A stretch of DNA of 48,751 nucleotides from NCBI GenBank assembly GCA_029974925.1, contig JARKQH010000160.1, positions 1 through 48,751 on the forward strand, given 5' to 3'. This DNA is from Verrucomicrobiota bacterium. GTDB taxonomy: Bacteria > Verrucomicrobiota > Verrucomicrobiia > Limisphaerales > UBA8199. The notes under the pieces are model-generated. The model was not told the origin of the DNA. It saw only the letters and a list, made by a program, of their open reading frames with translations, and ran no database searches. The stretch's first letter is position 1; each line of letters starts with the position of its first letter. The translations under genes were made by a program, and so were the position numbers. Positions 12,434-48,751 of this stretch are shown in pieces.

Positions 12434-13291
12434 ATGAACACACCATTCAAAGTTGACCTGAAGGACCAAGTCGCCCTCGTGACCGGCGGCGGCGGCGTTT
12501 TGTGCAGCACCATGGCCCGCGCGCTGGCCGCCTGCGGGGCGCGGGTGGCCGTCGCCGACCTGAAAGCCGAAGCGGCGGAGGCCGTGGCCGAAGCAATTCG
12601 CAAAGAGGGCGGCACGGCCATCAGTGTGGCCTGCAATGTTTTGGAACTGGCCAGCCTCAAGGAGGCCAACGAGACGGTCAAAAGACAGTTGGGGCCGGTT
12701 TCCCTCCTCATCAATGGCGCCGGCGGCAATCACCCCAAAGGCACGACCACCCTCGAATACCTCCGCAAAGAGGACGTGGCCGGGGCCGTCGAGGGCATCG
12801 TCACCTTTTACGACCTGGACCCCAAAGGGATTGAATTCGTATTCAATCTCAACTTCCTGGGCACGCTGCTTCCCACCCAGGCGTTCACCCGCGAAATGGC
12901 CGCCACCGGACGCGGCACCGTCATCAACATCTCCTCGATGAACGCGTTTCGACCGCTGACCAAAATCCCGGCCTACAGCGGCGCCAAGGCCGCGGTCAGC
13001 AACTTCACCCAGTGGCTCGCCGTGCATCTGTCCCGCGTTGGCATTCGCGTCAACGCCATCGCCCCCGGCTTTTTCGTGACGGATCAAAATCGCGCGCTCC
13101 TCACCAAGCCGGACGGTTCCTGGACGCCGCGCGGCAACACGATTCTGGCCCACACCCCCATGGGCCGGTTCGGAACGCCGGACGATTTGATTGGCGCGTT
13201 GCTCTGGCTCGCCTCGGACCGCGCCTCCGGTTTCGTTACCGGTGTGGTGGTCCCCGTGGACGGGGGATTTGCGGCCTTCAGCGGCGTCTAG
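12434..13291 (+). CDS. SDR-family D-mannonate oxidoreductase (fructuronate reductase type)
   Basis: This 285-residue classical short-chain dehydrogenase would interconvert D-fructuronate and D-mannonate with NAD(P)H. The glycine-rich motif TGGGGVL begins at 17, and NGAGGNHP is at 94-101; the NHPK continuation is characteristic of SDR-type mannonate reductases. The active site is Ser167/Ser168 in NISSMNAF with Tyr181 and Lys185 (YSGAK). An insert at about 108-135 (YLRKEDVAG...FYDLDPKG) is also typical of this subfamily. The C-terminus GVVVPVDGGF is the usual SDR end. It is nearly contiguous with the LarA-like epimerase, so the two probably share mannonate as intermediate. The alternative is a related sugar-acid dehydrogenase. 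Confidence 0.88.
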   Translation: MNTPFKVDLKDQVALVTGGGGVLCSTMARALAACGARVAVADLKAEAAEAVAEAIRKEGGTAISVACNVLELASLKEANETVKRQLGPVSLLINGAGGNHPKGTTTLEYLRKEDVAGAVEGIVTFYDLDPKGIEFVFNLNFLGTLLPTQAFTREMAATGRGTVINISSMNAFRPLTKIPAYSGAKAAVSNFTQWLAVHLSRVGIRVNAIAPGFFVTDQNRALLTKPDGSWTPRGNTILAHTPMGRFGTPDDLIGALLWLASDRASGFVTGVVVPVDGGFAAFSGV

Positions 13292-20353: not shown

Positions 20354-23300
20354 TCAATTTTCCTCGAGAATTGTTACCGGTCCAAACAGCCCCGACTCCA
20401 TCAGGGGGGTCGAGCGGGTCAATTTCCGAATGTTGGTTTGGGTCAGGCGTTTTTCCACCGGCAGGCCAGCATCCCCGATGATCCGGTTGGGCCAGAAGTT
20501 GACCACGTCCACCTCAAGCCGGTTGCCGGACGATTTCACCGCCCCCGTTATCCTGACCCGGAAGGGCGGGGACCACACTACGCCGAGCGGCTTGCCGTTG
20601 AGCCGGACTTCGGCCAGCTCGCGCAGACCGCCCAGGTCCAGCCACAGGTTGGTTGCCGAGGCATCCACCCCCGGCGGCAGGTCGAACGTCTTGGTGTAAA
20701 CCGCCGTGCCGGAATAGAACTTGATTTCCGGCTCCGGGCGGGCGGTCCAGCTTGCCAGCTCGTCGAACGTCGCGGACGCGGGCCCTCCCCACCGCGGGTC
20801 AAAGTTCACCATCCACGGGCCGTGAATCGCTCCGCGTTCGCGGAATTCGCGGTGATTGCGCGACGCCCCCGGCGACGCCGGATGTCGCGCCGCGGGCTCG
20901 CGAAAGACGACAAACCAGGAGCCGCACGGCGTAAATTGCAGCGGCACGGTCGTGACGCCGTCCCGCGTTTCATAGGCCGCCGCAAAGCGGCGCTCGCCGG
21001 TGACCGCGTCCCACAGCTCGGGCGCCTTGCCTGCGACCCGGAAGCTGCAGCGGACTTCCTCCCAGCGGTTCGAGCCGTTGGCCACGAAGTAAATGTCCGT
21101 CCCATCAGCCGCGCGGTGGATATAGTCGAATACCGCGCCCGGCTTGCCGCCGGCGACTTCAAAATCAGGCGGCACCCCGTCCGCCCGCAAAACCTCGCGC
21201 GCCGTCCGGCCCCAAATGACGCGCCCCTGGCCGGCCGCGTGTTGCTTGAGGTTCTGCCCGTCGCAATCCGCCCACAAATCATCGGCCAGGCGCCGAACTT
21301 CCGCGTCCGACCCCGGGTATCCGCTCAGGCCGCTGGCGCGGCGGGGTTTGGGGCCCAACACCGTGCCGCCCGCAGGCACCAGTTCCTTCAATCGGCGGAG
21401 GACCGGGAGCGAGATGATGTCCCGGTCGGGCAGCACCAGGACGCGGTAGCTCATTCCGTCGGGCAAAACCCAGCGCCCCTCGCGCACCGTCAGCCGGGTC
21501 AGGACCGCTTCCTCCGTGATTACGTCGTAATCGTAGCCGGGCAGGACCCGGGCGGGATCCGAGCGTTTCAACTGGGCGAAATTGGGCACGTGATCGCCAT
21601 AGTAATAGCATGCGTCCGCGACAAACAGGCCCTGCTGGAGTAGAAACTGGGCGCGATTGATGTAGCTCAGGAAGGGGCCGGACCTGGACCACCAGGTGGT
21701 GTTGGGATTGAAATGCGTCCCGGCGAAGTATTGCTGGCCGGGCATGCCCATCTCTTCGGGCGAACACACAAACGCGTGCCACACCAGCAGATTCATCCCC
21801 TCGCACAATGCCTTGTCGAACGAGGGCTTGAGGTTGTCCCAGATTGTCTCCTGCCAATGCGGTCCGATGGTGGTAAAGCCTTCGGCCAGCACCAGGTTGC
21901 GCCCGTAGGTGTGCGCCGCCGAAGCGGGTTGCTTGAGGAAAAAGCGGTTCGGGTCGCCGACGCGGTGACGCCACGACCACGCCCAAAACTCGCTCATGGG
22001 CGCGTCGTTCCAGCCCAGGCAGCGCTGCGCGTCTATCGGCACCCCGTGAGGACCGCCGGACTCGGGATGAATGAGCAGGCCGTGCCGGTGCGCCCGGTCG
22101 CGGAAGATGCGGTAATGGTGGTCAATGGCCAGGTCGCCGATGGTTTTGCGGAAGTCATCCAGAAACCGGTTGCTTTCCTCGCGGTTGTTCACAATGCGGC
22201 CCGCGAGGACCGGCAGGAACGGCAGTGGCTCGTAACCTCGCCGCTGGCGGAACTCGTCGAAAAGCCGGGGTGTCCAGTTCAAGGGCTCGACCTCCCAACT
22301 GTCCGTGTGCAGGTATTTGAGCGTTTTGCCTGCCAGAGGTCCCGCATCGGCAATCAACGGCTCGACAATCGCGTCCCAATACCGCTCGAAGGCGCCCGCG
22401 TCCAGGACGTCCAGCGCGTACCCCTTCCACCCGTCACTGCAGGTCGAGACGTAGGAATGGTCCCCGATGGTGTAACCGAACCGCAGAACCTGCCACTCAC
22501 CCTCGGGGGCGTCCCAGTTCAAAGTCCCCTCCGGGTTCAGGTTGCGAGTTAGGTTCACCACGGCGTCTGTGGTGGTGTCCTCTTCGCCGGGGGTGGCGGG
22601 GTGGTCCTGAAACAGGGGCGTGGAATCCGGCGCCGAAAAGGGTTGCAGCGGGCGGAAGATGGCTTTCTCAGCCCAGTTTTGAATCGGTTTTCGAGCGGTC
22701 GCGCCAGGGGCCGCCGGCCACGACCGATCTTTGGCTTCCAAACGCAATTCCGCAACCTGGACATTGCGCGGGGCGTCCGGATAACGCGGATCATAGCTGC
22801 TGAAGAACAATACCCGGAAAAAGCGACCGCCGACGGCGTCTAAGCTCACCGCGACTTCGCCTCCCAACGGTGCGGTAAAGGCCTTTACGGGGCGAAACGC
22901 TTTGCCATCGTCCGACACTTGCAGTTCACAGTCCCGCGGGCCGTAGCCGGCACGCCCCAGCAGCGATAAACGCTCAACGGTCACGGGCCTGCCGAAAGCC
23001 AGTTGCAGCCACTGCGGCTGCTCGCGGCTTGGGCCTTGTCCCGGCTGGTCCGAGCTGGAAACCCAGAACGTGGCCGGGTCGCCGTCGCCCGCCAGAGCCG
23101 CGGGGTGCGCGCTCTGCGCCGAAGCGGCGGTGAGTTCCTTAAAAGCGTCATCCGTTCCCGGGCTGGCGCGCAGGCGGTAGGCGACGACGAACTGATCCCG
23201 GTAATACCCGTCCCGATGCTTCGGTACCGGCAGGGCCAGGCTGATTCTGCCCGGCCCGGCGACCCGCGCTTCAGACCAGGTGAGCTTCTTCGCCGCGTCA

Positions 23301-23740
23301 TCGGCCGTGACGTTGGGTCCGCCCAGGTTCCAGCCGCTCATGATGTTCAGGCTCATTTCCAGTCCCAGGCGGTGGGCTTCGCGCAATGTATGCCGGTACA
23401 GCTCCCGCCACTCCGGCGTGAAAAAAGTCGGTCCATGCGGCACCCGGTCGTTGCCATCCTGCTCGGCACCCCCCGCGTCGCAAATGAGGGCGCCGCCAAA
23501 ACCCCTGGCCGCCATCTCCTCAAGATCTCGTGTGATGGCGGCCCGGGTCACGTTGCCGTTGAGCCACCACCAATACGCCCGCAGCCGGGCGTTCAGGGGG
23601 GGCGTTTCCCAGCCTTGTGCCAGCGCATCCGGTTTGGTTTCCGCAGCCAGCACCGTCGGAGTTCTATCATTCAGCGTTATTGCCGCCAACACGGCCAGCA
23701 CCCCAGCGAACCTGAATCGCAAAGAAACAACGCGTGGCAT
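20354..23740 (-). CDS. Secreted GH106-family alpha-L-rhamnosidase
   Basis: The 1128-residue protein opens with a signal peptide (about residues 1-33). The GH106 N-terminal block follows: RAYWWWLNGNVTRAAI (54-69), GFGGALICDAGG, and SLNIMSGWNLGGPNV (130-144). A discoidin-like (F5/8 type C) segment is inserted at about 203-336 (DGDPATFW, WLQLAFGRPVTVERL, CELQVSDDG). Conserved GH106 stretches continue with LAEGFTTIGPHWQETIWD and HAFVCSPEEMGMPGQQY, and the C-terminus is a jelly-roll sugar-binding domain (WLDLGGL, VRLNGKPLGVVW). GH106 enzymes release terminal L-rhamnose from pectin-type side chains. The ATG at 23740 is preferred over 23767 because it gives a clean signal peptide. It leads the operon with the isomerase and propeller. 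Confidence 0.92.
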   Translation of the reverse strand: MPRVVSLRFRFAGVLAVLAAITLNDRTPTVLAAETKPDALAQGWETPPLNARLRAYWWWLNGNVTRAAITRDLEEMAARGFGGALICDAGGAEQDGNDRVPHGPTFFTPEWRELYRHTLREAHRLGLEMSLNIMSGWNLGGPNVTADDAAKKLTWSEARVAGPGRISLALPVPKHRDGYYRDQFVVAYRLRASPGTDDAFKELTAASAQSAHPAALAGDGDPATFWVSSSDQPGQGPSREQPQWLQLAFGRPVTVERLSLLGRAGYGPRDCELQVSDDGKAFRPVKAFTAPLGGEVAVSLDAVGGRFFRVLFFSSYDPRYPDAPRNVQVAELRLEAKDRSWPAAPGATARKPIQNWAEKAIFRPLQPFSAPDSTPLFQDHPATPGEEDTTTDAVVNLTRNLNPEGTLNWDAPEGEWQVLRFGYTIGDHSYVSTCSDGWKGYALDVLDAGAFERYWDAIVEPLIADAGPLAGKTLKYLHTDSWEVEPLNWTPRLFDEFRQRRGYEPLPFLPVLAGRIVNNREESNRFLDDFRKTIGDLAIDHHYRIFRDRAHRHGLLIHPESGGPHGVPIDAQRCLGWNDAPMSEFWAWSWRHRVGDPNRFFLKQPASAAHTYGRNLVLAEGFTTIGPHWQETIWDNLKPSFDKALCEGMNLLVWHAFVCSPEEMGMPGQQYFAGTHFNPNTTWWSRSGPFLSYINRAQFLLQQGLFVADACYYYGDHVPNFAQLKRSDPARVLPGYDYDVITEEAVLTRLTVREGRWVLPDGMSYRVLVLPDRDIISLPVLRRLKELVPAGGTVLGPKPRRASGLSGYPGSDAEVRRLADDLWADCDGQNLKQHAAGQGRVIWGRTAREVLRADGVPPDFEVAGGKPGAVFDYIHRAADGTDIYFVANGSNRWEEVRCSFRVAGKAPELWDAVTGERRFAAAYETRDGVTTVPLQFTPCGSWFVVFREPAARHPASPGASRNHREFRERGAIHGPWMVNFDPRWGGPASATFDELASWTARPEPEIKFYSGTAVYTKTFDLPPGVDASATNLWLDLGGLRELAEVRLNGKPLGVVWSPPFRVRITGAVKSSGNRLEVDVVNFWPNRIIGDAGLPVEKRLTQTNIRKLTRSTPLMESGLFGPVTILEEN

Positions 23741-23858
23741 AAAAACTTGCGGCCAGAGAACAGGCATGCCCGAATCAATGCAAGTTTATTCACCGCCTCC
23801 CCGGCAAATCCTCCACAATCGTGACCCGGCATCCTTCCCGCGAGGTTCGGGTCGGTGC

Positions 23859-28512: not shown

Positions 28513-29406
28513 ATGGCAGGCACGTTAAGAAAAAACTGGCGCGGGCACCGCGAAGCATCGCAGCGGGGGACGGAGGAGCCGCCGCTGATCAAGTGGCTGC
28601 TGATCGGGGCCGCGCTGAGCTTTTGCGTCGTTTTTCTGTTGCTGCCCCTGGCGAACGTGTTTGCCCAGGCGCTGGCCAAGGGGTGGGCCTTCTATTGGAA
28701 GTCGCTGGCGCACCCCGACTCCCGGGCGGCCATCCGGCTCACGCTCACCGTGGCGGCCATCAGCGTGCCGCTCAATGTCGTGTTCGGCCTGGCGGCGGCC
28801 TGGGCCATCGCGAAGTTTCAATTTCGGGGCAAGTCGCTGCTCATTACCTTGATTGACCTTCCCTTTTCGGTGTCCCCGGTCGTGGCCGGGCTGATGTTTC
28901 TCGTGCTGTTTGGGCTCCAGGGCTATCTGGGCGAATGGCTGCAAGACCACAACCTGCGGGTGATTTTCGCGCTGCCCGGCATTGTCCTGGCCACCGTGTT
29001 CATCACCTTTCCGTTTGTGGCGCGGGAACTGATTCCGGTGATGGAGGCGACGGGCACGGAGCAGGAGCAGGCGGCGCTGACGCTGGGGGCCAGCGGCTGG
29101 CAGACCTTCTGGCATGTCACTCTCCCCTCGGTAAAGTGGGGGTTGTTGTATGGCATCATCCTTTGCAACGCGCGCGCCATGGGCGAGTTTGGCGCGGTCT
29201 CGGTGGTGTCCGGGCATATCACCGGCCAGACCGACACCATGCCGCTGCGCGTGGAAAAGCTGTATAACGAGTATAACGCGGCGGGGGCGTTTGCCGTGGC
29301 GAGCCTGCTGGCGTTGCTGGCGCTGTTCACGCTGGCGATCAAGACGTTCCTCGAGTGGCGCCAATCCCGCGAATTTGCCCGCGCCCGGACGGCCGGGAGG
29401 GTTTAA
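28513..29406 (+). CDS. cysW: Sulfate/thiosulfate ABC transporter permease CysW
   Basis: The 297-residue partner permease has about six transmembrane segments and CysW motifs: KFQFRGKSLLITLIDLPFSVSPVVAGLMFLVLFG, FPFVARELIPVMEATG, and the EAA loop EQEQAALTLGASGWQTFWHVTLPSVKWGLLYG. ARAMGEFGAVSVVSGHI and DTMPLRVEKLYNEYN, both characteristic of CysW, follow. The ATG at 28513 lies eight bases after the cysT stop and is chosen over upstream in-frame starts that lie inside cysT. The N-terminal 25 residues are a hydrophilic extension rich in arginine. Confidence 0.95.
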   Translation: MAGTLRKNWRGHREASQRGTEEPPLIKWLLIGAALSFCVVFLLLPLANVFAQALAKGWAFYWKSLAHPDSRAAIRLTLTVAAISVPLNVVFGLAAAWAIAKFQFRGKSLLITLIDLPFSVSPVVAGLMFLVLFGLQGYLGEWLQDHNLRVIFALPGIVLATVFITFPFVARELIPVMEATGTEQEQAALTLGASGWQTFWHVTLPSVKWGLLYGIILCNARAMGEFGAVSVVSGHITGQTDTMPLRVEKLYNEYNAAGAFAVASLLALLALFTLAIKTFLEWRQSREFARARTAGRV

Positions 29407-29448
29407 GCGGCCGCAAATGCCAAGTGAAAACGAGCCGAGTTTAAAGCC

Positions 29449-30552
29449 GTGAGCATCGAACTGCGCAACGTGAGCAAGAGGTTCGGCGAGGTGGTTGCCG
29501 TGAACAACGTGTCGTTTACGGTTCGCGAGGGCGAGCTGATGGCGCTGCTGGGGCCCAGCGGCGGCGGCAAGACCACGGTGCTGCGCATGATCGCCGGCCT
29601 GGAGATGCCCACCTCGGGCGATGTGTTGATCGGGGGGAAACGAGTCAACGACGTCTCCGTGCAGCAGCGGAACATAGGCTTCGTGTTCCAGAATTACGCC
29701 TTGTTCAACAACATGACCGTGGCGCGCAACATCGCTTTCGGCCTCAAGATCAAAAAGTGGCGGCGCGCGGACATCCAGGCGCGCATTGCGGAATTGCTGG
29801 AGTTGTTCGGGCTTCAGGGCCTGGAATCGCGCTATCCGCACCAGTTGTCCGGCGGGCAGCGCCAGCGGGTCGCGATCGCCCGCGCCTTGGCCCCGAAGCC
29901 CAGTGTGCTGCTGCTGGACGAGCCGTTCGGGGCTGTGGACGCCAAAATCCGGCAGGAGTTGCGCGAGTGGCTGGTCACTTTGCATCACGACCTGAACGTA
30001 ACCACAGTCTTTGTGACGCACGACCAGGAGGAAGCGATGGAGGTGGCGAATCGCATTGTGATTTTCTCCCGCGGGAACCTCGAGCAGGTGGGGTCGCCGC
30101 GCGAGGTTTATGAGCAGCCGGCCAACGAGTTTGTCGCCCGCTTCATCGGGGTGATGAACGTGCTGGAACCGGTCGTGAAGGACGGCGTGGCGCGGGTGGG
30201 CGAGCTGGAGTTCCCCGCACCGGGCCAGCCGGACGGGCAGAAACTTCGCATCGGGTTTCGTCCCTACGCCGTGCAGATTTCCTCGGACCTGACCCAATAC
30301 CGCTACCGGGCGGTGCTGCGGCACACCTTTTTCCTGGGAGTGCTCCTGCGGGTCGAGCTGGAATTGCCCAGCGGCTTGATCGTTCGCGCCCGGATGACCA
30401 AGGAAGAATATGCCCATCAGGGGCTCGAGGAGGGATGCGAGGTCTCGTTCCAGATTCGCCAATACCGCGTGCTTGCCCGCGAAGAGGCCCCTCTGCAACC
30501 GGAACTGGAGCTGCCTTACACGCCGCCGCCCATCCTGGGCGAGAACATTTGA
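29449..30552 (+). CDS. cysA: Sulfate/thiosulfate ABC transporter ATP-binding protein CysA
   Basis: The 367-residue ATPase powers CysTW. Walker A is GPSGGGKTT (about 36-44), the signature LSGGQRQRVAIARAL, Walker B VLLLDEPFGAVDA, and the switch histidine lies in VTHDQEEAMEVA. The FQNYALFNNMTVARNIAFGLK Q-loop region is typical of the CysA/PotA/MalK group. A C-terminal TOBE-like regulatory domain follows from about residue 240 (FRPYAVQIS, FFLGVLLRVELEL). Translation starts at GTG 29449; an ATG at 29417 is out of frame and meets a stop at once. Length matches E. coli CysA. The gene converges on the deacetylase-fold gene 20 bases away. Confidence 0.96.
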   Translation: MSIELRNVSKRFGEVVAVNNVSFTVREGELMALLGPSGGGKTTVLRMIAGLEMPTSGDVLIGGKRVNDVSVQQRNIGFVFQNYALFNNMTVARNIAFGLKIKKWRRADIQARIAELLELFGLQGLESRYPHQLSGGQRQRVAIARALAPKPSVLLLDEPFGAVDAKIRQELREWLVTLHHDLNVTTVFVTHDQEEAMEVANRIVIFSRGNLEQVGSPREVYEQPANEFVARFIGVMNVLEPVVKDGVARVGELEFPAPGQPDGQKLRIGFRPYAVQISSDLTQYRYRAVLRHTFFLGVLLRVELELPSGLIVRARMTKEEYAHQGLEEGCEVSFQIRQYRVLAREEAPLQPELELPYTPPPILGENI

Positions 30553-30572
30553 CCGCCGCCGCGGCCGCACTG

Positions 30573-31504: not shown

Positions 31505-34500
31505 TTACCATTCCCGGACCCGATAGAAACGTTGCGGGGCGCTGGCGTGAGGGTCCACGAGGGACTGCAGGGTGCCATTGCCGAAAACCGTGCCGAGAGT
31601 CGTCCAGGCGCTCTCCTGCAGCGAGCCCTTGAATTCCAGCGAGTAGCGTTTGCCCGGCGCCGTCTGGAGCCAGGCGGTGAAAGAGCCGTTGGCGAAAGAT
31701 TGGCGTGTGATTCGCGGCGGCTGGCCGGGGGAGCCCAGCAGCAACAGCGTGTGGGCGCTGCCGGCGGCAATCGCGCTGACGTTGGTGAGCGTGCCCGAGA
31801 CGCTGCATTGACCGTTCCAGTTGGCGCCCCAGGCCAGGACGCTGCCGTTGGCGCGCAGCGCCACGCTGTGCGCGCCGCCGCCAGCCACCGCGACCGCGTC
31901 GCCAAGGCTCGGTGGCGGTTGGGCTTGACCCTGCGTGTCATCACCCCACGCCACCACCGTGCCGTCCGCCCGGATGGCGAGGCTGTGGTATTCGCCCGCG
32001 GCAATGGCCCTGATCCCGCTGAGATTCCAGGGCACAACGGACTGCCCCACATAGTAGCCTTGCGCATCGGTATTCTCGCCCCAGGCGACGACGGTGCCAT
32101 CGGCCCGCAGCGCCAGGTTGTGATTGCCGCCCGCCGCGATGGCAACGACTCCCCGCAAGTTGGGCGGCACGGAGGCCTGTCCCCACGAGTTGTCACCCCA
32201 GGCGACCACGGTTCCGTCAGCGCGCAGGGCCAGCGAATGCCAGAACCCGGCCGCGATGGCGACCACGTTGGCAAGGCCGGCCGGCGCATTTAACTGGCCG
32301 TAATAGTTGGCGCCCCAGCCCGTCAGCGTGCCGTCGGACTTGAGCGCCAGGCTGTGGTAGCCGCCGCCCGCGATGGCCATGACCCCGCCGAGGCCGGGCG
32401 GAATGTCGCATTGGCCATCCCAGTTTTCTCCCCAGGCCAGAACCGTTCCCTGCGGCGTCAGGGCAAGGCTGTGCCAGGAACCGGCGGCAATGGCCACCGG
32501 ATTGGTCGCAGCGGCGACGACGCTGATTTGACCGAAGGAATTGTCTCCGGCGATGGCCATCGGCACCACACCCAGCAGCGCATTGGAACTGACAATCGCG
32601 CCGTAGGGATTGCTCACGCGCACGGAATAGTACCCGCCATGGGCCACGCCGGGGCTCGAGAGGGTAAACGAGCTTGCGGTCGCGCCGGCAATCGGCGCGC
32701 CGTTAAAGAACCACTGATAACCAAGCGTCGGCGTCCCGAAAGCAGCAACCCGGAACGTCACCGCCGCCCCGCCGACGCTGCTTTGGCTGGCCGGTTGTTC
32801 CGTTATAAATGGCAGGGTGGCGCCCGCCGTGTAGCGAACCTCGTCCACCCACCCTTGATCCTGCCCGGCACTGCCGCCGGCATCTTTGCGGTAGAGCCAT
32901 TCGAGGTTGAGGCTCCCGGCGGGCAAATAGAGGGTTTTCTGTTCCCAACCCTGCTCGCCGGAAATCCGGGCGATTTCTTCAGCGCCCAGTTTGAAGCTCA
33001 AGGTGTCCGCGTTGGTTTGAGACGACACCCGCCACCAGAACTCGACTGTCCCGGGACCGGTAACGGTGGTGCGCAGGCTGGTGGATTGGTCGTGTCCAAT
33101 GAAATAGCTGCGAGCCGAGGCGACGCCATCCCAAGAGAAATTGGTCTGGCCATACCAGGGCAGGTCGGCATCGGTCATCCACGTCTGGTTGCTGTTATTG
33201 AGGGCGTAGGGCAGGGGGACGGTGGGAATGACCACCAGCGACGCGCTGGCGCTGGTCACGCTTCCGTAGGCGTTGGTGACCATCACGGAGTATTGGGCGA
33301 CGTCCGCGGGCTGGACGTTGACAATGGAGTAGGCCGACTGGGTTGCGCCGGCGATGGCGGCGCCATCCTTGCGCCACTGGTAGTGCAGCGGTGAGAAGCC
33401 GCTGGCCGCCGCGGTGAAGGTCGCCGTCTGGCCCGGCACCACCGTGAGGGTTGAGGGATGTTTCACAATCACGGGGGCGGGGTCGTTGGTGCCCACGACA
33501 AAGTTCATGCTGAGCCCCGGCGGCGAAAAGTTGCGGAGCACCAGGCCCGAGGGCTGGCCGCTCCACCAGTGCGCATGCGGGGCCGAGGTGTCCGACAAGA
33601 GGTTGCTGTAGCCGGCCGCCGTGTTGCCCTGATAGTAGAGGTCTTTGGAGTCTCCGCTGTTGCGATTCCTTTCCAGATGCCACTGGTTGTCGGCCTGGAC
33701 GAGCGTGGCTTCAAAGTTGTTATGCGTGGTGTTCGGGTTGAGGTTGACCTTGCTGTTGTCCCCCAACTCGTCAATGTGCCACACGGCAACGCCGGAACCG
33801 GGAAGAGAACTGTCGTGGTTGGTTTTGTAACGGGCCTCGATGAGGAAGTATTCCCGGGGCGTCCCGGGCTTGGCGAAGCGGTAGAAGGTGTTGAAATTCG
33901 AGCCGGGCTGGGAGTGGACGGTGGCGACGAGACTGGAGGTCAGGTCGAGGTCAATCGTGGTGGCCCAGCCGGAGGCGCGCTTGAGATAGGCGCATATTTG
34001 CGCCGGATTGTTGCCGGGGTTGGAGGAGCTGCCGCCCCAGGAGCCGCCCGCCATCAGGCACCAATCACCCACTCCGGCCGACCGCCCGGTGTAGTCATAG
34101 AGGTCGGGGTAGTCGCACAGCATGTGCCCGTTCTCATGAACAAAGGTGCCGATGGACAGTTTGTCGCCGATGTTGGTGATTTGATAAAAATAAACCCGTT
34201 TGCCGCCCGGGGACAGCTCGATCGGGCTGGCGAGCACCCACGAATGCGGCCACAGCCCGTAGCTCCAGCGCCCGCCGTTGTCGCCAGCGTAAAAAACGTT
34301 CAGAGCCAGCACCCGGTTTTGCGCGTCGGTGCTAAGCGCGGCGAAGGTGGGGAGAATTTCACTGTCGTAGTTCGGCAGGGCCTTCATGGCTTCGAGGGCG
34401 TCTTTAATGAGCAGGCGGCCCTGCTGACCGGCATCCTTGCTGGTGTCGTTGTAGGTGGTTTTGGGTTTGGGGGCGCGGATGTAAACGGTCACCACGTTGG

Positions 34501-35155
34501 TGTAAGTCAGCTTCCCGTTGGAGTTGTAAGCGAAGTAGGCTTTGACCGACCCGTTGTTGCCGTAACCGGAATAATTGTCGCCATTGCAGAAGTTGAGGAT
34601 TTCGGCCTGGGGCACAGTGGCCACGTCGTCCTCGAAATCAATCAGCAAAGTCAGCCCGACTTTCAGGCCCACCGTGGACCCGCCGGGCGGGGCGAAGGTG
34701 GCGCCGTCGGCGGCGGCCAGGGCCAGGGCTTGTTTGCGCGCCTGCCAGCGTTCGGAAATTCGCATGCCCTCGTCCCAGCGCGCGAACCGCGCCGCCGCCT
34801 GCTCCGCCACGGCGTCGGGGCTGATGCGCAGGTGGGGCTCGAGACCCAGGCCTTGAGGATTGCCAAGATGAACTTGCACGCCGGTGGAAAGCAGTTGGCG
34901 GCCATCCTCCGAACGGCGGGCATAGCAATAGGCCATGAGCCCCTCGTCAAAGACAACCGTGTAGCCTTCGAGGGTTTCGAAAACGGCATGAAATTCATCC
35001 CCCTGGCCCCACAAGCGGATGGCGGTGCCGTCGGGCTGGCGAAACGGGATTTCTTTTGAGAACGGCGCCGCCCACAGGAGCTGGAGGGTGGCAAGCAAGG
35101 TCGCCCCGGTGAGGAGCAAACCCGTGCGGGAAGTAAAGCGGCACGGTGCGGACAT
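31505..35155 (-). CDS. Secreted M6-like metalloprotease with Ig-like domains and RCC1 propeller
   Basis: This 1216-residue exported protein begins with a signal peptide (about 1-30, ending LLWAAP) after an AAAGG ribosome-binding site. Residues about 160-600 form an M6 (immune inhibitor A-like) protease with HENGHMLCDYPDLYD at 340-354; His340, Glu341 and His344 are the zinc/catalytic residues. Two Ig-like domains follow (about 605-690 and 815-900; each with YQW and YSVxVxNxYG motifs), with a beta-sandwich segment between them. Seven RCC1-type repeats occupy about 866-1143, each close to 'AIAAGxxHSLALRADGTVVAWG'. The end is QRFYRVREW, a C-terminus common in exported proteins of this group. Likely a cell-surface or extracellular protease; targets unknown. 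Confidence 0.9.
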   Translation of the reverse strand: MSAPCRFTSRTGLLLTGATLLATLQLLWAAPFSKEIPFRQPDGTAIRLWGQGDEFHAVFETLEGYTVVFDEGLMAYCYARRSEDGRQLLSTGVQVHLGNPQGLGLEPHLRISPDAVAEQAAARFARWDEGMRISERWQARKQALALAAADGATFAPPGGSTVGLKVGLTLLIDFEDDVATVPQAEILNFCNGDNYSGYGNNGSVKAYFAYNSNGKLTYTNVVTVYIRAPKPKTTYNDTSKDAGQQGRLLIKDALEAMKALPNYDSEILPTFAALSTDAQNRVLALNVFYAGDNGGRWSYGLWPHSWVLASPIELSPGGKRVYFYQITNIGDKLSIGTFVHENGHMLCDYPDLYDYTGRSAGVGDWCLMAGGSWGGSSSNPGNNPAQICAYLKRASGWATTIDLDLTSSLVATVHSQPGSNFNTFYRFAKPGTPREYFLIEARYKTNHDSSLPGSGVAVWHIDELGDNSKVNLNPNTTHNNFEATLVQADNQWHLERNRNSGDSKDLYYQGNTAAGYSNLLSDTSAPHAHWWSGQPSGLVLRNFSPPGLSMNFVVGTNDPAPVIVKHPSTLTVVPGQTATFTAAASGFSPLHYQWRKDGAAIAGATQSAYSIVNVQPADVAQYSVMVTNAYGSVTSASASLVVIPTVPLPYALNNSNQTWMTDADLPWYGQTNFSWDGVASARSYFIGHDQSTSLRTTVTGPGTVEFWWRVSSQTNADTLSFKLGAEEIARISGEQGWEQKTLYLPAGSLNLEWLYRKDAGGSAGQDQGWVDEVRYTAGATLPFITEQPASQSSVGGAAVTFRVAAFGTPTLGYQWFFNGAPIAGATASSFTLSSPGVAHGGYYSVRVSNPYGAIVSSNALLGVVPMAIAGDNSFGQISVVAAATNPVAIAAGSWHSLALTPQGTVLAWGENWDGQCDIPPGLGGVMAIAGGGYHSLALKSDGTLTGWGANYYGQLNAPAGLANVVAIAAGFWHSLALRADGTVVAWGDNSWGQASVPPNLRGVVAIAAGGNHNLALRADGTVVAWGENTDAQGYYVGQSVVPWNLSGIRAIAAGEYHSLAIRADGTVVAWGDDTQGQAQPPPSLGDAVAVAGGGAHSVALRANGSVLAWGANWNGQCSVSGTLTNVSAIAAGSAHTLLLLGSPGQPPRITRQSFANGSFTAWLQTAPGKRYSLEFKGSLQESAWTTLGTVFGNGTLQSLVDPHASAPQRFYRVREW
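31728..32560 (-). repeat. Seven tandem RCC1-encoding repeats
   Basis: Seven imperfect units of about 115-140 bases each encode an AIAAG..HSLAL..DGTVVAWG blade. Seven copies are what a closed RCC1 beta-propeller requires. The units are diverged at DNA level, so they are not a recent expansion and not CRISPR. Confidence 0.8.
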
Positions 35156-35440
35156 AGAGCCTTTCTTTGCTGAGCGCAGACGAACCGGGCCCATCCCAAT
35201 CCGCGTGCACCCCCTACTTATCCGACCGGGCGACGCCGCAATCAAGAGAAATTATGTGGCGAAGGCGGACAATCTGGCCGGAGCAGCCGGATGCGAGCAG
35301 AGGGCAAGACCGGGCCTTAAGCAGACCTGCGGCGCCTGCGAGGGACGGGCAATCGGCCCAAGGCCCCAGGTGGAGCTTGGGTTGATCCCCGGGACCGTGT
35401 ATCAGAAGAGTGGATTGAACAGCGCAAACTGGATTGAATT

Positions 35441-39476: not shown

Positions 39477-42400
39477 CTAGAGCCTCAGCCGGTAGAAAAC
39501 CGCGGGGGCCGCCGGGTTGATGGGCACAATGACCTGATTGGTCGTGGTGGACGCCGGAATGTCAACCCAGTTGTCGCCCAGTCCAACCCCCAGCCCGTTG
39601 GTCTGGCCTTGCAGCGTCCAGCCAGTGTGATCCGCCGGCCATGAGAGCGTCAACCGGTCGCCGGAAACATGAACTGAAAGGTTCGTCGGGTTCGGATTCA
39701 CCGTTGCGATGACCGATAACGTGCCGCTGCTGGCCAGCGCCGATGTCTCCCACGCCAGCCCCGGCCCGGGCGTCGGGGGCGAAATCGCCGCGAATGAGCC
39801 GCTGTAATGAGGGGCGTTGAAAAGCGTGAACGCATCGCCCGGCGCCAGCGGCGTGCCACCCAGGTTTGTCAGCAACAGGGTGCCCCCGAAGGTTATGTTG
39901 CCGGTTGCTCTAACCTGGTCGTTGGTCAACGGCGATTTTGACAGCTCAAGTTCCGTCACGCCGGCGAGGGCAAGATCACCGGAAAAATTCAACCTGCCGA
40001 GGGAAAGGCCGGGCTCAAGCCTTCCGAGAACAACCGTGTTCCCGGTAATGGTACCGCTGCCTTTCAGCGTCTGGGACGTGCCAACGGTGAGTCCGTTGAC
40101 CGCGTCCAGAGTTGCCCCCGCAGCGACGATCAGGTTGGGGCTGGCAGCCAGTGAACCGGAAGCGTTCAGCGCCAAGGTTCCTTCATGGATCACCGTATCG
40201 CCGGCGTAACTCGCAGGGCCGGCCAAGGTGAGCCGGCCCGCGCCGGTTTTGGTCAGACTCCCGTTACCCCCCGCCGTCCCGAGGAAAGTGGTGTTGGACA
40301 CTGCGATGTTGAAGGTGGCCGCGCCATTCAGGGTCAACGGAGCCTCGAGCGTGAACGCCGCGGTTGGCGCGCCGGTGATGGTGAGACGATGCCCGCCGAC
40401 GCTCAGCGCGCCCCCTCCCGCGGCCGCCTGGGTGCCACGAAGGTCCACCGTCGAATCGCCGGTAACGTTCAGGGCATTGACCAGGCTTACCGGCCCATTC
40501 ACCACCGTCGCGCTGATCGCGAAGACGTTCAGCACCCCGCTGCCCCCCGTGCGAACAATCGTCACCGAGGCAATGGGCTTCATCTGGCTGCCCACGGGCA
40601 CATTGTAGTCCGTCTGAAACAGGTACCACGACGAACCCGTCTCAAAACTGCCGCCGCGCTGCACCCGCCCTTTGACGACCACCGCAACCGCCGCGTTGGA
40701 AGTGCCCCAGTCGGGTGAACTCAACCCGCCGACCGTCTGGGACGTGCCGTCGGCAAAGTTGACCACCAGGCTGAAGGTGGTCGTTCCGGAACCCGACGTG
40801 TGCAGAAGGCTCAGCCTGGACGCGGTGACGGGGGAACTCAGCGTCAGGGTGCCGGAGCCGCTGGCCAGCGTGAGGGCATTGTTGCCGCCGTATGGCTGCA
40901 ACAAAAAGGACACGGCCGGGTTCACCTGGCTGTTCAGCACCCGCGAAGCCGGCAAACCGCCAGCGCCGCCCGAGCCTGGCGCGTTGGTCTCGTAGAAAAC
41001 ATAGTTGGCATTGTCAATGCCCCGGGTCGTGCCTGCCGCGGCGCTGGCTTCACTCGCCCCAAGCAGCACGTCGTGATTGAAACCAGTCAGACCCAGCGGG
41101 GTCTGGGTCGTTGGCCCAAACAGCGCCAGGGTTCCCCCCGCCAGGGTGATCCCGCCCGTGCTCAGCGGGGCGTTGCCGCCGGCAAACTGTGCCGCGAGGG
41201 TGCCGCCGTTGAGAAGGGTGCCGCCGCTGTAAGTGTTCGTGCCGGACAGCAACAGCGTGCCGGGACCGTCCTTTGTCAGACTGGCGGCCCCCGGATAATC
41301 TCCCGAACCGTCCTTCAACGAAGCGCTGATCACCAGGTCCGGCGCTTCGTCCCCGGTTGCATCCGCCACCGCAAACACGGTCGTGCCTCCGCCTCGCAGG
41401 TGGTTGGCCCGGCCGGTGGCGGCGCTCATGCTCGAGGCGTTGGTTCCCCCAACGGCAACCGCGCCGATGAATTGAAATCCTTCATAAGTGCCGGGACCAT
41501 CGCTCGCGTTCTGCACCAGCGCCCCGCCGTTCAGCGTTACGTTCGGCAGCACATTGAATCGCGACGCGCTCAGCGTCCCATGGATGACCAGCGCGGGCAG
41601 ACCGGCGGCGCTCATGCCGCCGCCCCCGAAGATGTTGTTCATGCTGAATTCCAGCATCGCATTCGGCCCGACGGTGATCACCCGCGCGCCGCTCTTGGCT
41701 CCGAGCGCAGAGGCCGTGCCGCTGCTGGTCAGGGCACTGGCGATCACCGTCCCTTCACTCACCGTCAAATCGCCTCCGAACGTGTTCCCCGCGTTCCCCA
41801 GCCGCAGGCTGCCGGCGCCGGCTTTAATCAGCCCCCCGCTGCCGGACAAAATGCCGGCAAGCACCGTGTCGCCCGCCCCCGCAATCGAAAGATTGTGACC
41901 GTTGTTGTTCACGGACCCGCCCACCGTCAGCGTGTCGTTGCTGCTGATCACGCTCTGGGGGGCGGCCAGGGTGAGGGGGATGTTCCACTGGTTCGGACCG
42001 GCCTGGCTGAGGATTCCCTTCCCCAGCACCAGCGCATTGCCGTAAATCGAAAAACCGGGCGTGAGGAAACACACTTGCCCCGCCGACCCCAGAAAGTTGT
42101 TGGTATTTCCCCGGCGCGCCAGTCCGGTGAACACGAGGTCTTGTCCCCCGGCGGGCGTGGTGCCGGACCAATTGGCCGGCTGGTTCCAAAAGCTGCTGGT
42201 TCCTCCACCGTTCCAAACCACGCCGCCGGCGCTGAGCTGCACCCGGCCCGTCGCCGCCGCATTGAAACTGTCAGTGGCCCGAACCATCAACGTGTTCAAC
42301 CCGGCATCGCCCGCCTGGGGCGTTCCGCTCAGCGAGGCGTCCGGCGCTACCGAGAGCCAGTCCGGGCCCGCCACCTTGCTGAACGTGAGAGTGTCCCCGG

Positions 42401-45368
42401 GATTGGGGTCGGAAACGACTCCCCCAAGGCTGTTTGAATACGCCACGCCAATGGACGCCGCGGGGAGCACAACCGGATCGAACGCGAAGAACGGCGCCCG
42501 GTTGACCGACTGCTGGTAGCGGCTGGCAATCTCGGCGGCGGAAAGCGGCCGGTTGTACACCCGCACGTCATCCACCAACCCCGGGAAATAATAGGCCCCC
42601 GCGGTTTCCGTCGAGCCGGCGCCAATCCGCAGCGGTCTGGCGGTGTTGGGCGCAAAGTTCGCCTGGGCGGTCCCGTAGGGCGCGCCATTGACGTAAAAGC
42701 TCTGATAATTGGCGTGCACCACCCCCACCAGTTGCACCCATTGGTCGAGCACCACCTCCGGCCCGCTCATTTGCGTCCAGCCTCCCGCGTTCCCGTTTCC
42801 GGTCCAGAATTGCCACACATTGTTGTTCCCCGCGTAAAACACGAAACCGCGCGACGGACTGTCGTCCCGCGATGTCAAGGGCGAGCGATACGTGCCCGCG
42901 CCGCCGGTGACCTTGCACCACACCTCGACGGTGAATGACGTGGTGTTCAAAACGCTCGCGTAGGGCACATCCACCTTCTGATTCGAGCCATTGAATCGCA
43001 CCGCCCGGTTGGTGGCCTCAATCAACACCCCGGGCTGCGCCAGGGTCGGGTTGTTGAAGTAGGTGCCGTGGTTGACGCCAATGGCATCGCGCGCCACCGC
43101 CCCGCTGAGTTCATCCAGCTTCCATCGGGCAACCGGGTCACCGGAAGAGTACGAGAAAAACCACACGGGCCCCTTCACCACCTGCCCGCCATACTCTTCG
43201 TCCACCCGCCAATACCACGTGCCATCCGTCAAGGCCGGCAGAAATTGCGTCCCGCTGACTCGCCCCACGTACTCGGCGGAGTTGGTCGTCGCATTCGCCA
43301 CCGCCGCGTAATCCGTCCCCAGAAAAACCTGTTGCGCAAGAGCGGTGCGGGGATTCTGCCACTGCAGCGCCGGCAGGCTGCTGAAGAGGGCGCCGCCGGA
43401 AGCCGGAACCGGATTGTAGGCGCTGCCGATGCCAGCCGCCACCTGCGCCACCTCCACGGCGCTCAACGCCCGCCGATAAATCCGCACCTCGTCCATCACG
43501 CCGTTGAAAAAACGCCCGTCGTTCGCCTCCCGCCCAATATAGAGCGTCGAGCCAAAGGTTTGAACCGCGTGCGCCGCATTGTTGGTCGCCGCCCGGAGCC
43601 CCCGCCCGTCGTCAAGGTACAGCACCGCCCGGCCGGGCTCGACCACCAGCGCGCAAAAGGCCCACTGGCCATCGGGAACCACCAGGCCGGACGCGAAGTT
43701 GTAGTACTGGTCGTTCCAGTGATAGCCCAGCTCATGGGTGGTCCCCCGCAAATTCAGACCGGCCACCGTCCCGTTGCCGCGGGTGAAAATCAGGCCGGCA
43801 TAACTGGACTGGCTGCCGTTGCGCTTGACCCAGCCGGTGAGGGTGACGGTGTTGGTGTTCAGATTCAGCGCCGGCACGGAAACCTGCATTGTGCTGCCAT
43901 TGAATTGCAGACCGCCCCCGACCATCGCGCTGGTCCAGGCTCCGGCGCTCGCCACCGTGCCGTCGTTGGCGCTCCCGGACGCGTCGTGCGCCACCGTCCC
44001 GCTGCCTTCGTCCAAAGGCCAATAGCCTGCCAGGTCGTTCGCCGGCGGATCAACCATCACATAAACGTAGCCCAGACCCGTCCGGCCCGCCGAGTCTGTG
44101 ATCCGGTAGGAAAACCGGTCGGCGCCCAACGGCGAGCTGGCCGGTGGTGTGTAAACGATCTGATCCCGTCCTCCCGGGCCCGTGCCAACCGAGCGCGTGA
44201 CCGTGCCCCCGCGCATGCTGGTGGCGGGCACCTCCAGCAGCGAAAGCGGCAGCCCGTTGCCACTATGGTCGTTGTGGAGCACGTCCACCGTCACGGAGTT
44301 CGGATACACCGCGATCGCGGTGTCCAGCGAAGCGCGGGGCGGTAGCGGGAAGGAATAGGGCCCCAGGTTGTCCAGAATGCCAAGCTTGCCGTTCCGGTGT
44401 GAAACGATCTTGTTCTCTTCGGGCCCCGAGCACCGTGCATACGCATTCCCGTTCATGATCGTCGCCCCTTCACTTGACCCGCCCTCCCAGTCGCCACAAC
44501 TCCAATTATGCCCCACCTCATGACGCCACACCTGGGAAAAATCGCCGTTCTCTCCCCCGTTGTACCCGCAGGCCGAATACCGCACCGAGGTGCCGATCAC
44601 GCCCACCCAAGCCACCCCACCGCCAATCGAGTCCGCCACCGTCCCGACGTCGTGCGTCGTGTCGTTGGCGCTTAGGAACACCCGGCAGGCGTCCAGTTTG
44701 CCCCCCGCCGAGGAAATCAAGTGGTACGGATCCTGATCATAATTGGCGCGGATAAACACCTTCCCCACACGGTGCAGGATGCCGTTATCGCGCAGATAGA
44801 AATAGGTGCCGGACAGAATGGAAAACTCCACCGCCGCCACCGTTCGTTCCAAGTCCTGGCCGCAAGCGTTGAAATGCGCATACGCCGAGTCCACGGCGAT
44901 TTCCGCCGCATAAATGTTGCTGCCCGCTCCACCCGCCACGGTCACGATGGGCGAGGTGGGATAATTCAGGCCAAACGTGGTGCTGCCGCGCGAGTAAGCC
45001 CTGGCACTCGGCCCGCTGAAATAGACCCATTCAACGCCGTTTTCAAAGCTGACCTTTGCCCAGAGATTGCCGTCCGCCAGCAAAGTCGCGCAGGCCAAAG
45101 CGCCGGGGTTTCCCGTGACCGTGCCAAGGTAGGTGCGCGCCGGTCCCGGCGTATAGTCCGCAAATGAACCATCGGGCTGCTGCACTTTGACGCCGAAATT
45201 GGCGCTGCGGATGGGGTGGTATTGAAATGCCACCGCAACGGTGGTGCCGCCGACAGTCAGGTTGGTGGTGAAAGAGGCGGGCGGAGTTTGCGCCTGAACC
45301 GGGAGCCTGACCGGCAGACCCAGGAATACAACGAGGGCAATTCCGGCATGGCCGACAAAAATCTTCAT
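39477..45368 (-). CDS. Giant secreted metalloprotease with LamG domains and autotransporter-associated beta-strand repeats
   Basis: This 1963-residue exported protein starts at ATG 45368 (45377 is an alternative) with a signal peptide ending about residue 28. A reprolysin/metzincin-like domain follows, with [11 protein letters not shown] at 283-293 (His283, Glu284, His287, Asp293 at +10). An Ig-like domain precedes two LamG/concanavalin-type domains at about 444-644 ([10 protein letters not shown]...[14 protein letters not shown]) and 744-953 ([10 protein letters not shown]...[14 protein letters not shown]). A putative-Ig segment (about 955-1045) comes next. Residues about 1046-1880 are beta-solenoid with at least three autotransporter-associated repeats ([40 protein letters not shown]). 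There is no outer-membrane beta-barrel; the end is PAVFYRLRL. It is likely surface-exposed or released. Confidence 0.88.
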
Positions 45369-45463
45369 CGTTAACACGCTATCTCACATTGAATTGGGCT
45401 TCCAATACCACGTTTTGGGGAGGCTTGGAATGCCCTGAACCCGGTGCGGACTTTTACCATTCC

Positions 45464-46231: not shown

Positions 46232-46617
46232 ATGAATAAGCCGAAACCTCAATTCATGTGGTGTGGTCTGGCTTCCGTCCTCGTCGCGGTTTCCTTCGTC
46301 ATGTTGCTGCTGAGCGGGGCCATGCTTTTCGTGGCCCCGCCCGGTCGCGTCGCCAACTGGAGCAACTGGCGGCTGCTCGGCCTCACCAAACACGACTGGG
46401 GCGGGCTCCATATCTGGTTCGCCGCGGTGCCGGTGCGGGCCGCCGCACTTTGGCTGAATACTGCGCTTCCCGGGGACTCGACCTTCAAACCGTTTCAGCC
46501 CGCCTCCAATCCAAAGGCATTAAATTCGCCCCCGACCGTTCCCTTCGCGACATCGCCTTGGACAACGGCTTCGACCGCCCGTATGGAATCATTGACATCA
46601 TCGAGGAGAAGGATTAG
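46232..46617 (+). pseudogene. Broken DUF4405 membrane protein gene (internal deletion and frameshift)
   Basis: The first 60 or so codons (from ATG 46232) give a DUF4405-type N-terminus: a membrane helix (FVMLLLSGAMLFVAPPG), VANWSNWRLLGLTKHDWGGLHIWFAAV. The homology then breaks in the segment around 46415-46450. In a second frame, ending at TAG 46617, a typical DUF4405 C-terminus appears: RRTLAEYCASRGLDLQ, LQSKGIKFAPDRSLRDIALD and PYGIIDII. The intervening helices and histidine-containing middle are missing, so both a deletion and a frame change occurred. If the original frame is followed, translation runs on to 46669 through meaningless sequence. The event could be genuine decay or an assembly error. 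Confidence 0.72.
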
Positions 46618-46649
46618 TCAAACCACTGCCGCCACCGGCGGTTCCTGTC

Positions 46650-48107
46650 ATGGAAAACGGAACGGATAAGGCGCTCGCGGGCTTGAGTGTCCTCGTCGTG
46701 GACGACGAGGCGCTCCTTCGGCGCCGATTGGCGGCTCACTTGGAAGCCCTCGGCGCCGATGTCACCGCCACCGAAAACCTGGCCGGCGCCCGACGCTTGT
46801 TGACCGGCCTCGAATTCGATTTTGTCCTCCTCGACGTCCATCTGCCCGACGGCCTGGGGACCGATCTGTTGCGGGAGGGGTTGCTCGAAAACGGACCGGG
46901 GGTCGTGATCATGACGGCGCAGGGGGAGATCGGCGGCGCCGTCGAGGCGATGCGCCTGGGCGCCTTGGACTATCTGGTCAAGCCGTTCGACCCCGCCATT
47001 CTGCCGTTGGTCATGCGGCGCGCCCGCCGCTCGCGGCAATCCCGCCGCGCGGCTGAACATGTCGCCGAGTCCGCGCCTGAAGCGCAATTCTTCTTTGGCG
47101 ACTCCCTGGCGGAACTGCGCGCCCAGCTTGAGCGCCTCCTCGCGGCCGACCGCCGTCTGCAGACTCGGTTGCCCCCGGTGCTGATCATCGGCGAAACCGG
47201 CACCGGCAAATCCAGCCTGGCTCGCTGGATTCACCGCAACGGCCCTCGCGCCACCCTGCCGCTGATCGAAGTCAACTGCTCGGCTTTGCCGGATACGCTG
47301 GCCGAATCGGAGCTGTTTGGTCATGAGCGCGGGGCCTTCACAGACGCGCGCACCGCGCGCCAGGGGCTTTTCGAAGCAGCGCACGGCGGCACGCTTTTCC
47401 TGGATGAGCTGCCCAGTCTCTCGCCGGCGCTCCAGGCCAAGGTGCTCACCGCCCTTGAAGACCGAAAAATCCGGCGTCTGGGCGGAAACCGCCAGATTGA
47501 AGTGGATGTCCGCGTCATTGCCGCGACAAGCCGGGACCTGCGCGCCGCGGTGGCGAGCGGCGAGTTCCGCGAGGATTTGCTGCACCGGCTGGACCTTTAT
47601 CGGATCACGCTGCCACCGTTGCGCGAGCGCGGGACCGATATTCTCAAGCTGGCCGAACATTTGCTGGGGCAGTTCTGCCGGGAGCACCGGTTGCCCCCGC
47701 GGGCAATCTCCCCGCCGGGGAAACAGCGCCTGATGGCCTATCGCTGGCCGGGCAACGTGCGCGAGCTGGCGCACGAGTTGGAGCGGGCGCTGGTCTTTGA
47801 TGACGCCGCAGCCTTGGACTTCGCGCATTTGGAGCCCCTGGCGCAACCGGGGCGGCCAGGTTCCCAAGCCGGGCCCCAGACCAGCGGAACCCCGGACTGG
47901 CTTAATCCCGGTTTTGCTTTTCCCGAGGAAGGTTTCGTGCTCGAAGACGCCATCAACCGGCTGGTGCAACTGGCCCTGAAGCAGGCCCAAGGCAATGTTT
48001 CCCAAGCCGCGCGATTCCTCGGCGTGACGCGCGATTTCATTCGCTACCGCCTGCACGGCGATCGAAAGAACCGGACAGACTCGGGCACCTCGCCCGGTCA
48101 ACCCTGA
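46650..48107 (+). CDS. NtrC-family sigma-54-dependent response regulator
   Basis: The 485-residue protein has a receiver domain (Asp18, Asp19, phospho-acceptor Asp62 in VLLDVHLPD, Lys111 in LVKPFD), an AAA+ sigma-54 activation domain and a C-terminal Fis-type helix-turn-helix (NVSQAARFLGVTRDFIRYRL). In the AAA+ part, Walker A is GETGTGKS (181-188), the sigma-54 contact loop reads GAFTDA (228-233) instead of GAFTGA, and Walker B is TLFLDE. RWPGNVREL-type sensor 2 is present as YRWPGNVRELAHEL. No cognate histidine kinase is seen in the window. It would activate sigma-54 promoters when phosphorylated; targets are unknown. It starts 33 bases after the DUF4405 remnant. Confidence 0.95.
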   Translation: MENGTDKALAGLSVLVVDDEALLRRRLAAHLEALGADVTATENLAGARRLLTGLEFDFVLLDVHLPDGLGTDLLREGLLENGPGVVIMTAQGEIGGAVEAMRLGALDYLVKPFDPAILPLVMRRARRSRQSRRAAEHVAESAPEAQFFFGDSLAELRAQLERLLAADRRLQTRLPPVLIIGETGTGKSSLARWIHRNGPRATLPLIEVNCSALPDTLAESELFGHERGAFTDARTARQGLFEAAHGGTLFLDELPSLSPALQAKVLTALEDRKIRRLGGNRQIEVDVRVIAATSRDLRAAVASGEFREDLLHRLDLYRITLPPLRERGTDILKLAEHLLGQFCREHRLPPRAISPPGKQRLMAYRWPGNVRELAHELERALVFDDAAALDFAHLEPLAQPGRPGSQAGPQTSGTPDWLNPGFAFPEEGFVLEDAINRLVQLALKQAQGNVSQAARFLGVTRDFIRYRLHGDRKNRTDSGTSPGQP

Positions 48108-48116
48108 AGCGCTGAC

Positions 48117-48751
48117 GTGAGGCTCCATCCCCCATTCTTGCCCCCACGCAGCCGCTGGCGGACGTGCTTCGCAGCGCGGCGGTTCAGCGGCCTTGCAGGC
48201 GCCCTGCTGCTCTCGGTTTGCCTGGGCGGCAGCGGCGCGCAACCCTCAACCAATGACGCGCCGTTGAGCTTGTGGGATGTCAGTTCCCGCGTGCAAATCG
48301 GCGGGGGACATCGTGGGAACGTCTTTCTGGCGCACGTTGCGCCCGAGGATGCCCCCTTCCTGTCCATCGGCGGCGATACCTCGGTCATCCGCATTTCCGA
48401 CACGGGCTCGGAATTGACCCTGTTCCTGGTGGCGGAAGACATCCAGTATCTGGACGCGGTCTCCGTGGAGGGGGAGCGGTTCCTCTCGGCTTCCGCGCAA
48501 TTTCTGCAACCGCTATCGTCGCGGGACAAGGTGGGTGCGGAGGTGGGATATCTGTATCAACACCAAGTCCTGGACGTTTCGGAAACCGAGGAGTCCTTGC
48601 GCCGCGTTCTGGTGGAAGGTCACGGCCTCTCCCTTCGGCCCACCTGGCGTCACAGCTTCTCGCCGGTGTGGTCGCTTCAGCTCGAGGCGGGCGCGCACCG
48701 CCAGTTTTACATGGGCGAGCTGGATGATTATTGGGAGGCCAGCGCCCGCTT
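48117..48751 (+). CDS. Exported protein, probable outer-membrane beta-barrel (3' end outside window)
   Basis: From the GTG at 48117, 211 codons are open to the window edge. A basic N-terminus (RSRWRTCFAARRF) leads into a hydrophobic signal segment (SGLAGALLLSVCLGGSGAQ). The mature part alternates polar and hydrophobic residues with repeated aromatic ends (VGAEVGYLYQHQVLDV, LSLRPTWRHSFSPVWSLQLEAGAHRQFY), as in outer-membrane beta-barrels with a surface-measured domain. The family is not recognised. It starts 9 bases after the response-regulator stop, and the start codon is uncertain. Confidence 0.6.
   Translation, partial: MRLHPPFLPPRSRWRTCFAARRFSGLAGALLLSVCLGGSGAQPSTNDAPLSLWDVSSRVQIGGGHRGNVFLAHVAPEDAPFLSIGGDTSVIRISDTGSELTLFLVAEDIQYLDAVSVEGERFLSASAQFLQPLSSRDKVGAEVGYLYQHQVLDVSETEESLRRVLVEGHGLSLRPTWRHSFSPVWSLQLEAGAHRQFYMGELDDYWEASAR

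Follow-up and report, generated by a model that had tools for sequence, protein, structure and literature searches.

How might a long exported protein with the beta-strand repeats of an autotransporter, but without a translocator barrel, be brought to the cell surface, and does the C-terminus that it shares with a metalloprotease have a part in this? The question is raised by a locus in the window analyzed here, by which we mean the whole stretch of 48,751 nucleotides from a Verrucomicrobiota bacterium (contig JARKQH010000160.1). The open reading frame 39477-45377, on the minus strand, encodes 1,966 amino acids from a GTG or 1,963 amino acids from the ATG at 45368. An earlier note on this DNA had placed the end of the coding sequence at 45368; the frame is real and that position is the ATG at codon 4, while the frame itself opens at the GTG at 45377. 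We read its architecture as follows:

39477..45368, minus strand: coding sequence with signal peptide, M12-like metallopeptidase, Big_9, LamG, autotransporter-type beta-helix repeats and C-terminal module
45288..45368, minus strand: signal-peptide-like N-terminus of 27 residues, directly after the ATG (read from the translation)
44475..44903, minus strand: M12-type metallopeptidase-like region with HEVGH, residues 159-301 (Reprolysin_5, E 1.4e-4, below the Pfam cut-off)
44076..44339, minus strand: Big_9 bacterial Ig domain, residues 347-434 (Pfam match)
42525..42992, minus strand: Laminin_G_3, the better of two LamG stretches, residues 796-951 (Pfam match)
41739..41834, minus strand: TIGR02601 repeat
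41190..41282, minus strand: TIGR02601 repeat
40164..40259, minus strand: TIGR02601 repeat
39699..40349, minus strand: C-terminal part of the beta-solenoid, as modeled together with the module (pLDDT 93.7)
39480..39698, minus strand: C-terminal module, A-type, Fn3-like with strands A-B-C-E-F, ending in VFYRLRL before the stop

NCBIfam and Pfam scans placed the TIGR02601 repeats in three stretches (E 1.2e-21) and also detected PATR (E 7.9e-19); the last residue of the closing PAVFYRLRL lies at 39480. The last 290 amino acids, modeled with 39 relatives (pLDDT 93.7), were predicted to form a beta-solenoid followed by a separate module, and the best solved matches of the solenoid were autotransporter passengers, namely Ssp (8e7f, E 5.6e-5) and a C-terminal fragment of IcsA (5ke1, E 8.9e-5). 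With its signal peptide, a beta-solenoid passenger like those of Ssp, IcsA and Ag43, and TIGR02601/PATR repeats, the window protein resembles a type V autotransporter, from which it differs in having the module at the position of the barrel. Its description as lacking a translocator barrel was borne out: full-length Pfam and NCBIfam scans gave no barrel model at E<=1 in the protein, and the PF03797 barrel had no match in the whole genome, with E. coli and Caulobacter controls positive. None of the 10 ORFs scanned on the window contig was a secretion gene near this protein or the metalloprotease described below. Elsewhere in the window, 20354-23767 (minus strand) encodes a GH106 rhamnosidase whose residues 212-323 are an F5/8 type C domain, and three long candidate ORFs on the minus strand (9522-12446, 28525-30570 and 46614-48242) had no Pfam match at E<=1e-4.

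The second protein with this ending is an M6 metalloprotease whose start codon is uncertain: a TTG is listed, and an ATG lies 30 codons in, followed by a signal-peptide-like stretch. The last residue of its closing QRFYRVREW is at 31508.

31505..35245, minus strand: coding sequence of the M6 metalloprotease, with M6 domain, Ig domains and RCC1 repeats
31508..31735, minus strand: C-terminal module of the M6 protein, B-type, ending in QRFYRVREW before the stop

We found that the two C-termini are, as had been claimed, related: they are divergent members of one domain of about 75 residues. A search of the genome with the last 73 amino acids of the window protein gave 17 matches at E<=0.01 and one with the last 76 amino acids of the M6 protein gave 39, nearly all of them within a few residues of a stop codon, so the two ends are no chance pair. 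Sequences such as L013-L017 are intermediate between the A-type and B-type ends, and a single profile of 45 ends, A1, covers both. In full-length scans the C-termini of the window and M6 proteins matched no Pfam or NCBIfam model at E<=1, and the 45 isolated ends gave only single insignificant matches, including one to PF00041 (fn3) at E 0.14. We found no description of the module in the accessible parts of the open literature, and it may be described elsewhere.

In its own genome, profile A1 detected at least 150 copies of the module (the best 150 of 371 candidates). Of these 150 matches, 133 sit 0-12 residues before a stop codon, making about nine in ten C-terminal; six overran the fetched stretch, nine were followed by at least 30 residues and two by 18. 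Longer stretches settled the internal matches except for C442, which stops at its contig edge. Where stretches overlapped, some internal rows appeared twice, and one match, C128 612-682, proved to be a genuine Fn3 domain. Searching the retrieved frames locally, we obtained 143 distinct terminal copies. The other matches comprised about six first copies of tandem pairs, the true Fn3 domain, the match at the contig edge and eight proteins (C482, C96, C203, C190, C29, C125, C199 and C76) in which the module is non-terminal, being either internal or just behind the signal peptide. These eight indicate that the C-terminus need not be free, and copies inside the chain or behind the signal peptide make docking or anchoring likelier than an obligate one-way export signal of the T9SS kind.

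Several individual loci show how the module can be arranged. Directly after a signal peptide, it precedes an FGE-sulfatase domain in C482:21717-23111, a lipase-like domain in C29:32341-33903 and an unassigned region in C199:24689-26290. Tandem pairs at the C-terminus occur in C323, C26 (two ORFs), C199:28327, C138 and C436, and their short linkers leave little room for a strand G. At C405:21125-21319 and C239:11094-11246 an in-frame stop falls exactly at the usual module end, with the frame open for 18 and 54 residues further.

The very end of the chain appears to be constrained. In the 143 terminal copies the motif reads [FY][YF]R with L, V or A as the next residue; its Arg is 98% conserved at that column, and so is Trp41. 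The distance from the motif Arg to the stop is 4-6 residues in 104 of 139 copies (median 5; four copies lay outside the motif search). Pro is the last residue in 85 of 143 terminal copies versus 12 of 110 module-less ORFs (Fisher 4e-16), in 58 of 77 A-type modules from other species and in 16 of 38 modules across the phylum; neither window copy ends in it. Terminal placement also extends to other species, applying to 77 of 78 A-type loci and to 38 of 40 modules taken from 40 genomes of the phylum. The sole non-terminal A-type module, the L093 match 8001-8207, lies in a frame that continues for at least 300 residues.

To what fold does this ending belong? An AlphaFold2 model based on the 45-row alignment (pLDDT 90.6) has strands at residues 8-12, 15-19, 28-32, 55-59 and 68-72 and a short bridge near 46 (DSSP). 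Its Foldseek and VIA-align rows were mostly Fn3 domains, with weak scores (best E 0.057, Z up to 6.6). Because the Foldseek E-values are weak, the Fn3 assignment rests on the whole match set and on profile comparison by hhalign, which aligned the module with Fn3 domains of its own genome (prob 69, E 5.6e-6) up to Fn3 column 60 of 74; the controls reached prob 0.41 for Ig, 0.06 for Big_9 (one sequence only) and 0.05 for LamG. Conversely, an Fn3 profile from the same genome picked up one module copy (C128, E 1.5e-4), and TENCON chains (93-98 aa) align to residue 74 only, that is, minus their last strand. One finding leads in another direction: in a PDB sequence search, positions 11-70 of A1 matched the chitosanase binding modules 2rv9 and 4zxe, which we take to be CBM32, at E 2e-5, ahead of FN3con (4u3h) at E 0.004, but the AlphaFold2 model is Fn3-like. 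Known T9SS CTD structures were not among the fold matches listed, which does not in itself speak for a different fold. Taken with the stop at column 60 of 74, the Fn3 matches make the module look like a truncated Fn3 domain whose last strand is F, carrying the conserved [FY][YF]R motif, and which has no strand G. It shares with Fn3 (PF00041) the strand order A-F, YxL in strand C, W after strand C and FYRV in strand F, and differs from it in the missing strand G and the terminal placement. Without strand G, the most conserved strand lies at the edge of the sheet.

Next, we consider which proteins carry the module. The earlier note had raised the possibility that it is equally common in proteins without signal peptides. 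It is not: a strict home-made scan (not SignalP) detected a signal peptide in 94 of 115 complete module-terminal ORFs, versus 40 of 109 module-less ORFs, controls that came from the same module-rich stretches; among interior control windows it detected one in 6 of 81. With a looser scan the counts became 97 of 112 versus 50 of 110, and several of the 21 module-terminal ORFs that failed the strict scan look 5'-truncated or show a signal peptide by eye. The cargo is varied. Twenty random terminal ORFs shorter than 1,400 aa contained reprolysin, BNR, LamG, LTD, Ig, beta-helix and exo/endonuclease-phosphatase domains, and eight of the 20 had no Pfam match.

The TIGR02601 proteins allow the module to be compared with known surface endings. 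At least 26 ORFs in the same genome match TIGR02601, of which 22 reach a stop (among the best 150 of 160 candidates); the other four (C65, C170, C93 and C54) run off contig or stretch edges and were left out. All 22 stop-reaching ORFs among the matches listed end in the module, 21 of them clearly and C469 weakly at 15.2 bits. We then looked at 20 TIGR02601 proteins, hand-picked one per genome from genomes with no module match. None of them matched the module; judged by eye, 14 have PEP-CTERM-like ends, four a barrel-like strand with a final Phe and one neither, and one is cut off. In agreement with this exchange, a study of Akkermansia describes nine barrel-type autotransporters and 23 PEP-CTERM proteins (PMC4960237). 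The same passenger class thus ends in the module here and in PEP-CTERM or a barrel elsewhere, so that the module takes the position of two known surface endings. Like PEP-CTERM, it is a C-terminal tag of exported proteins, and PEP-CTERM is found on the equivalent beta-helix proteins of module-free genomes. Unlike PEP-CTERM, the module is a folded domain, and A1 and the 143 terminal copies have no PEP motif, transmembrane helix, Arg cluster or basic tail. PEP-CTERM does coexist in this genome, with 18 matches at other genes and one exosortase; it was seen on none of the 22 stop-reaching TIGR02601 ORFs.

Beyond this genome, we sampled 240 genomes of Verrucomicrobiota: the module gave one match or more at E<=1e-5 in 95 of them and none in 145; 42 genomes had at least 10 copies, counts per genome saturating at 24. 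The named A-type loci come nearly all from Verrucomicrobia subdivision 3, Limisphaerales, Pedosphaera or other Verrucomicrobia, with one titled Methylacidimicrobium and some only 'bacterium'. A plasmid search outside the phylum returned one weak Vibrio match (E 0.2). Exosortase was present in 94 of 95 module-bearing versus 85 of 145 other genomes (raw counts, uncorrected for kinship), in 55 of 55 genomes with at least five copies versus 124 of 185 others, and in 42 of 42 with at least 10. C25 peptidases occurred in 33 of 95 module-bearing and 18 of 145 other genomes; an obligate C25 partner was rejected, since only 22 of 42 genomes with at least 10 copies have one, and the C25 family is wider than PorU. 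A search for SprA matched 0 of 240 genomes and 0 of 14 positive controls. Of the route proposed in the earlier note, to profile the C-termini and look for a protease or secretion gene of matching distribution, the profile recovered the family; the SprA, exosortase and C25 searches yielded no partner.

We propose that the module is probably a hitherto undescribed address label, marking proteins bound for the cell surface. Its copy number, its terminal placement with fixed spacing to the stop, the varied exported cargo and the exchange with PEP-CTERM and barrels are together best explained by a shared address. The main rival, which we consider rather doubtful, is an accessory binding domain, Fn3- or CBM32-like and directed at carbohydrate or matrix, that is merely placed at the end of secreted proteins and has no sorting role. 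The eight non-terminal copies and roughly six tandem pairs would suit such a domain, as would the PDB sequence matches of A1 to 2rv9 and 4zxe, presumed CBM32 modules, and to FN3con. The fixed stop distance and the terminal Pro enrichment argue against it, as do cargo that includes both proteases and beta-helix passengers and the exchange with other surface endings; furthermore, the stretches, chosen for a module at the end, contain 17 other Fn3 rows, of which none is terminal. Alternatively, the module could serve as a structural end-cap, in which a truncated Fn3 would close off long chains rich in beta-strands and shield the C-terminus from proteolysis with no receptor involved. This would account for a fold finishing at strand F and for the terminal Pro, which would resist carboxypeptidases. 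We think it improbable, because the cargo domains have unrelated folds and hence offer no common surface to cap, and an open edge strand would make a poor cap.

The analogy to type IX secretion is close in design. According to PMC5445135, type A CTDs are beta-sandwiches of about 70-80 aa that form the extreme C-terminus of many proteins with signal peptides and varied cargo; their last strands are the most conserved, and in a 72-residue Ig-like C-terminal domain the last two strands carry the signal. The module differs in having [FY][YF]R and 4-6 residues to the stop where T9SS has PxGxYVV and KxxxK, in apparently lacking strand G and in occurring internally in some copies. Furthermore, the T9SS sorting models of Pfam and NCBIfam (which we take to be TIGR04183 and Por_Secre_tail, PF18962) matched 0 of 45 A1 members at E<=1, and C25 is patchy in module-rich genomes. 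Membership is not supported, and a genuine T9SS substrate signal in Verrucomicrobiota seems very unlikely, although the SprA search, blank in genomes and controls alike, does not show that a T9SS is absent. Hardly more can be said for the module as a divergent exosortase substrate. The enzyme is indeed present in every genome with at least five copies, but the module lacks the PEP motif, transmembrane helix and basic tail, and the single exosortase of its own genome has its 18 PEP-CTERM matches at other genes. The enzyme also occurs in many genomes that lack the module, so common descent can account for their co-occurrence.

We therefore return to the shared address. What we computed is that the two proteins end in homologous modules, how many copies there are and that they are mostly terminal, that the Fn3-like fold finishes with strand F, and that PEP-CTERM or barrel endings replace the module in other genomes; on balance, we favor the reading that exported proteins carry this shared end as a portable address module that sorts or anchors its cargo at the surface. 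A cargo protein would consist of a Sec signal peptide, varied cargo and the module, with the chain stopping 4-6 residues after [FY][YF]R[LVA], often in a terminal Pro. Judging from the signal peptides, the cargo would pass the inner membrane by Sec. One receptor in the periplasm, outer membrane or surface matrix would then recognize the folded module and give the cargo a common destination. We suspect that it would bind the open edge of strand F, and possibly the free C-terminus too, and would deliver the cargo to the cell surface or hold it there. Docking modules of the dockerin kind are likewise mostly C-terminal, sometimes internal, and found on varied enzymes; the fold of the module is unrelated to dockerin and no cohesin-like partner is known here. 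In the window protein, the module would occupy the position at which comparable beta-helix passengers elsewhere have an outer-membrane barrel. The suggestion of a sorting or anchoring module used instead of a beta-barrel has thus held as regards a recurring module in the barrel's place, mostly on signal-peptide carriers and exchanged for other endings; sorting or anchoring is its best, though unproven, reading. More tentatively, the module may belong to an undescribed Verrucomicrobiota system of outer-membrane delivery or surface docking, with at least 150 substrates here marked by a G-less Fn3, in which the receptor would donate the missing strand as in pilin donor-strand complementation and which would have taken over autotransporter passengers after these had lost their barrels.

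How the very many large enzymes and adhesin-like proteins of Verrucomicrobiota reach the cell surface is largely an open question. A module that replaces two known surface endings on one class of proteins offers a sequence marker of the likely surface proteome and opens the search for its partner by phylogenetic profiling or pull-down. If that partner were a new translocon, it would define a new secretion system.
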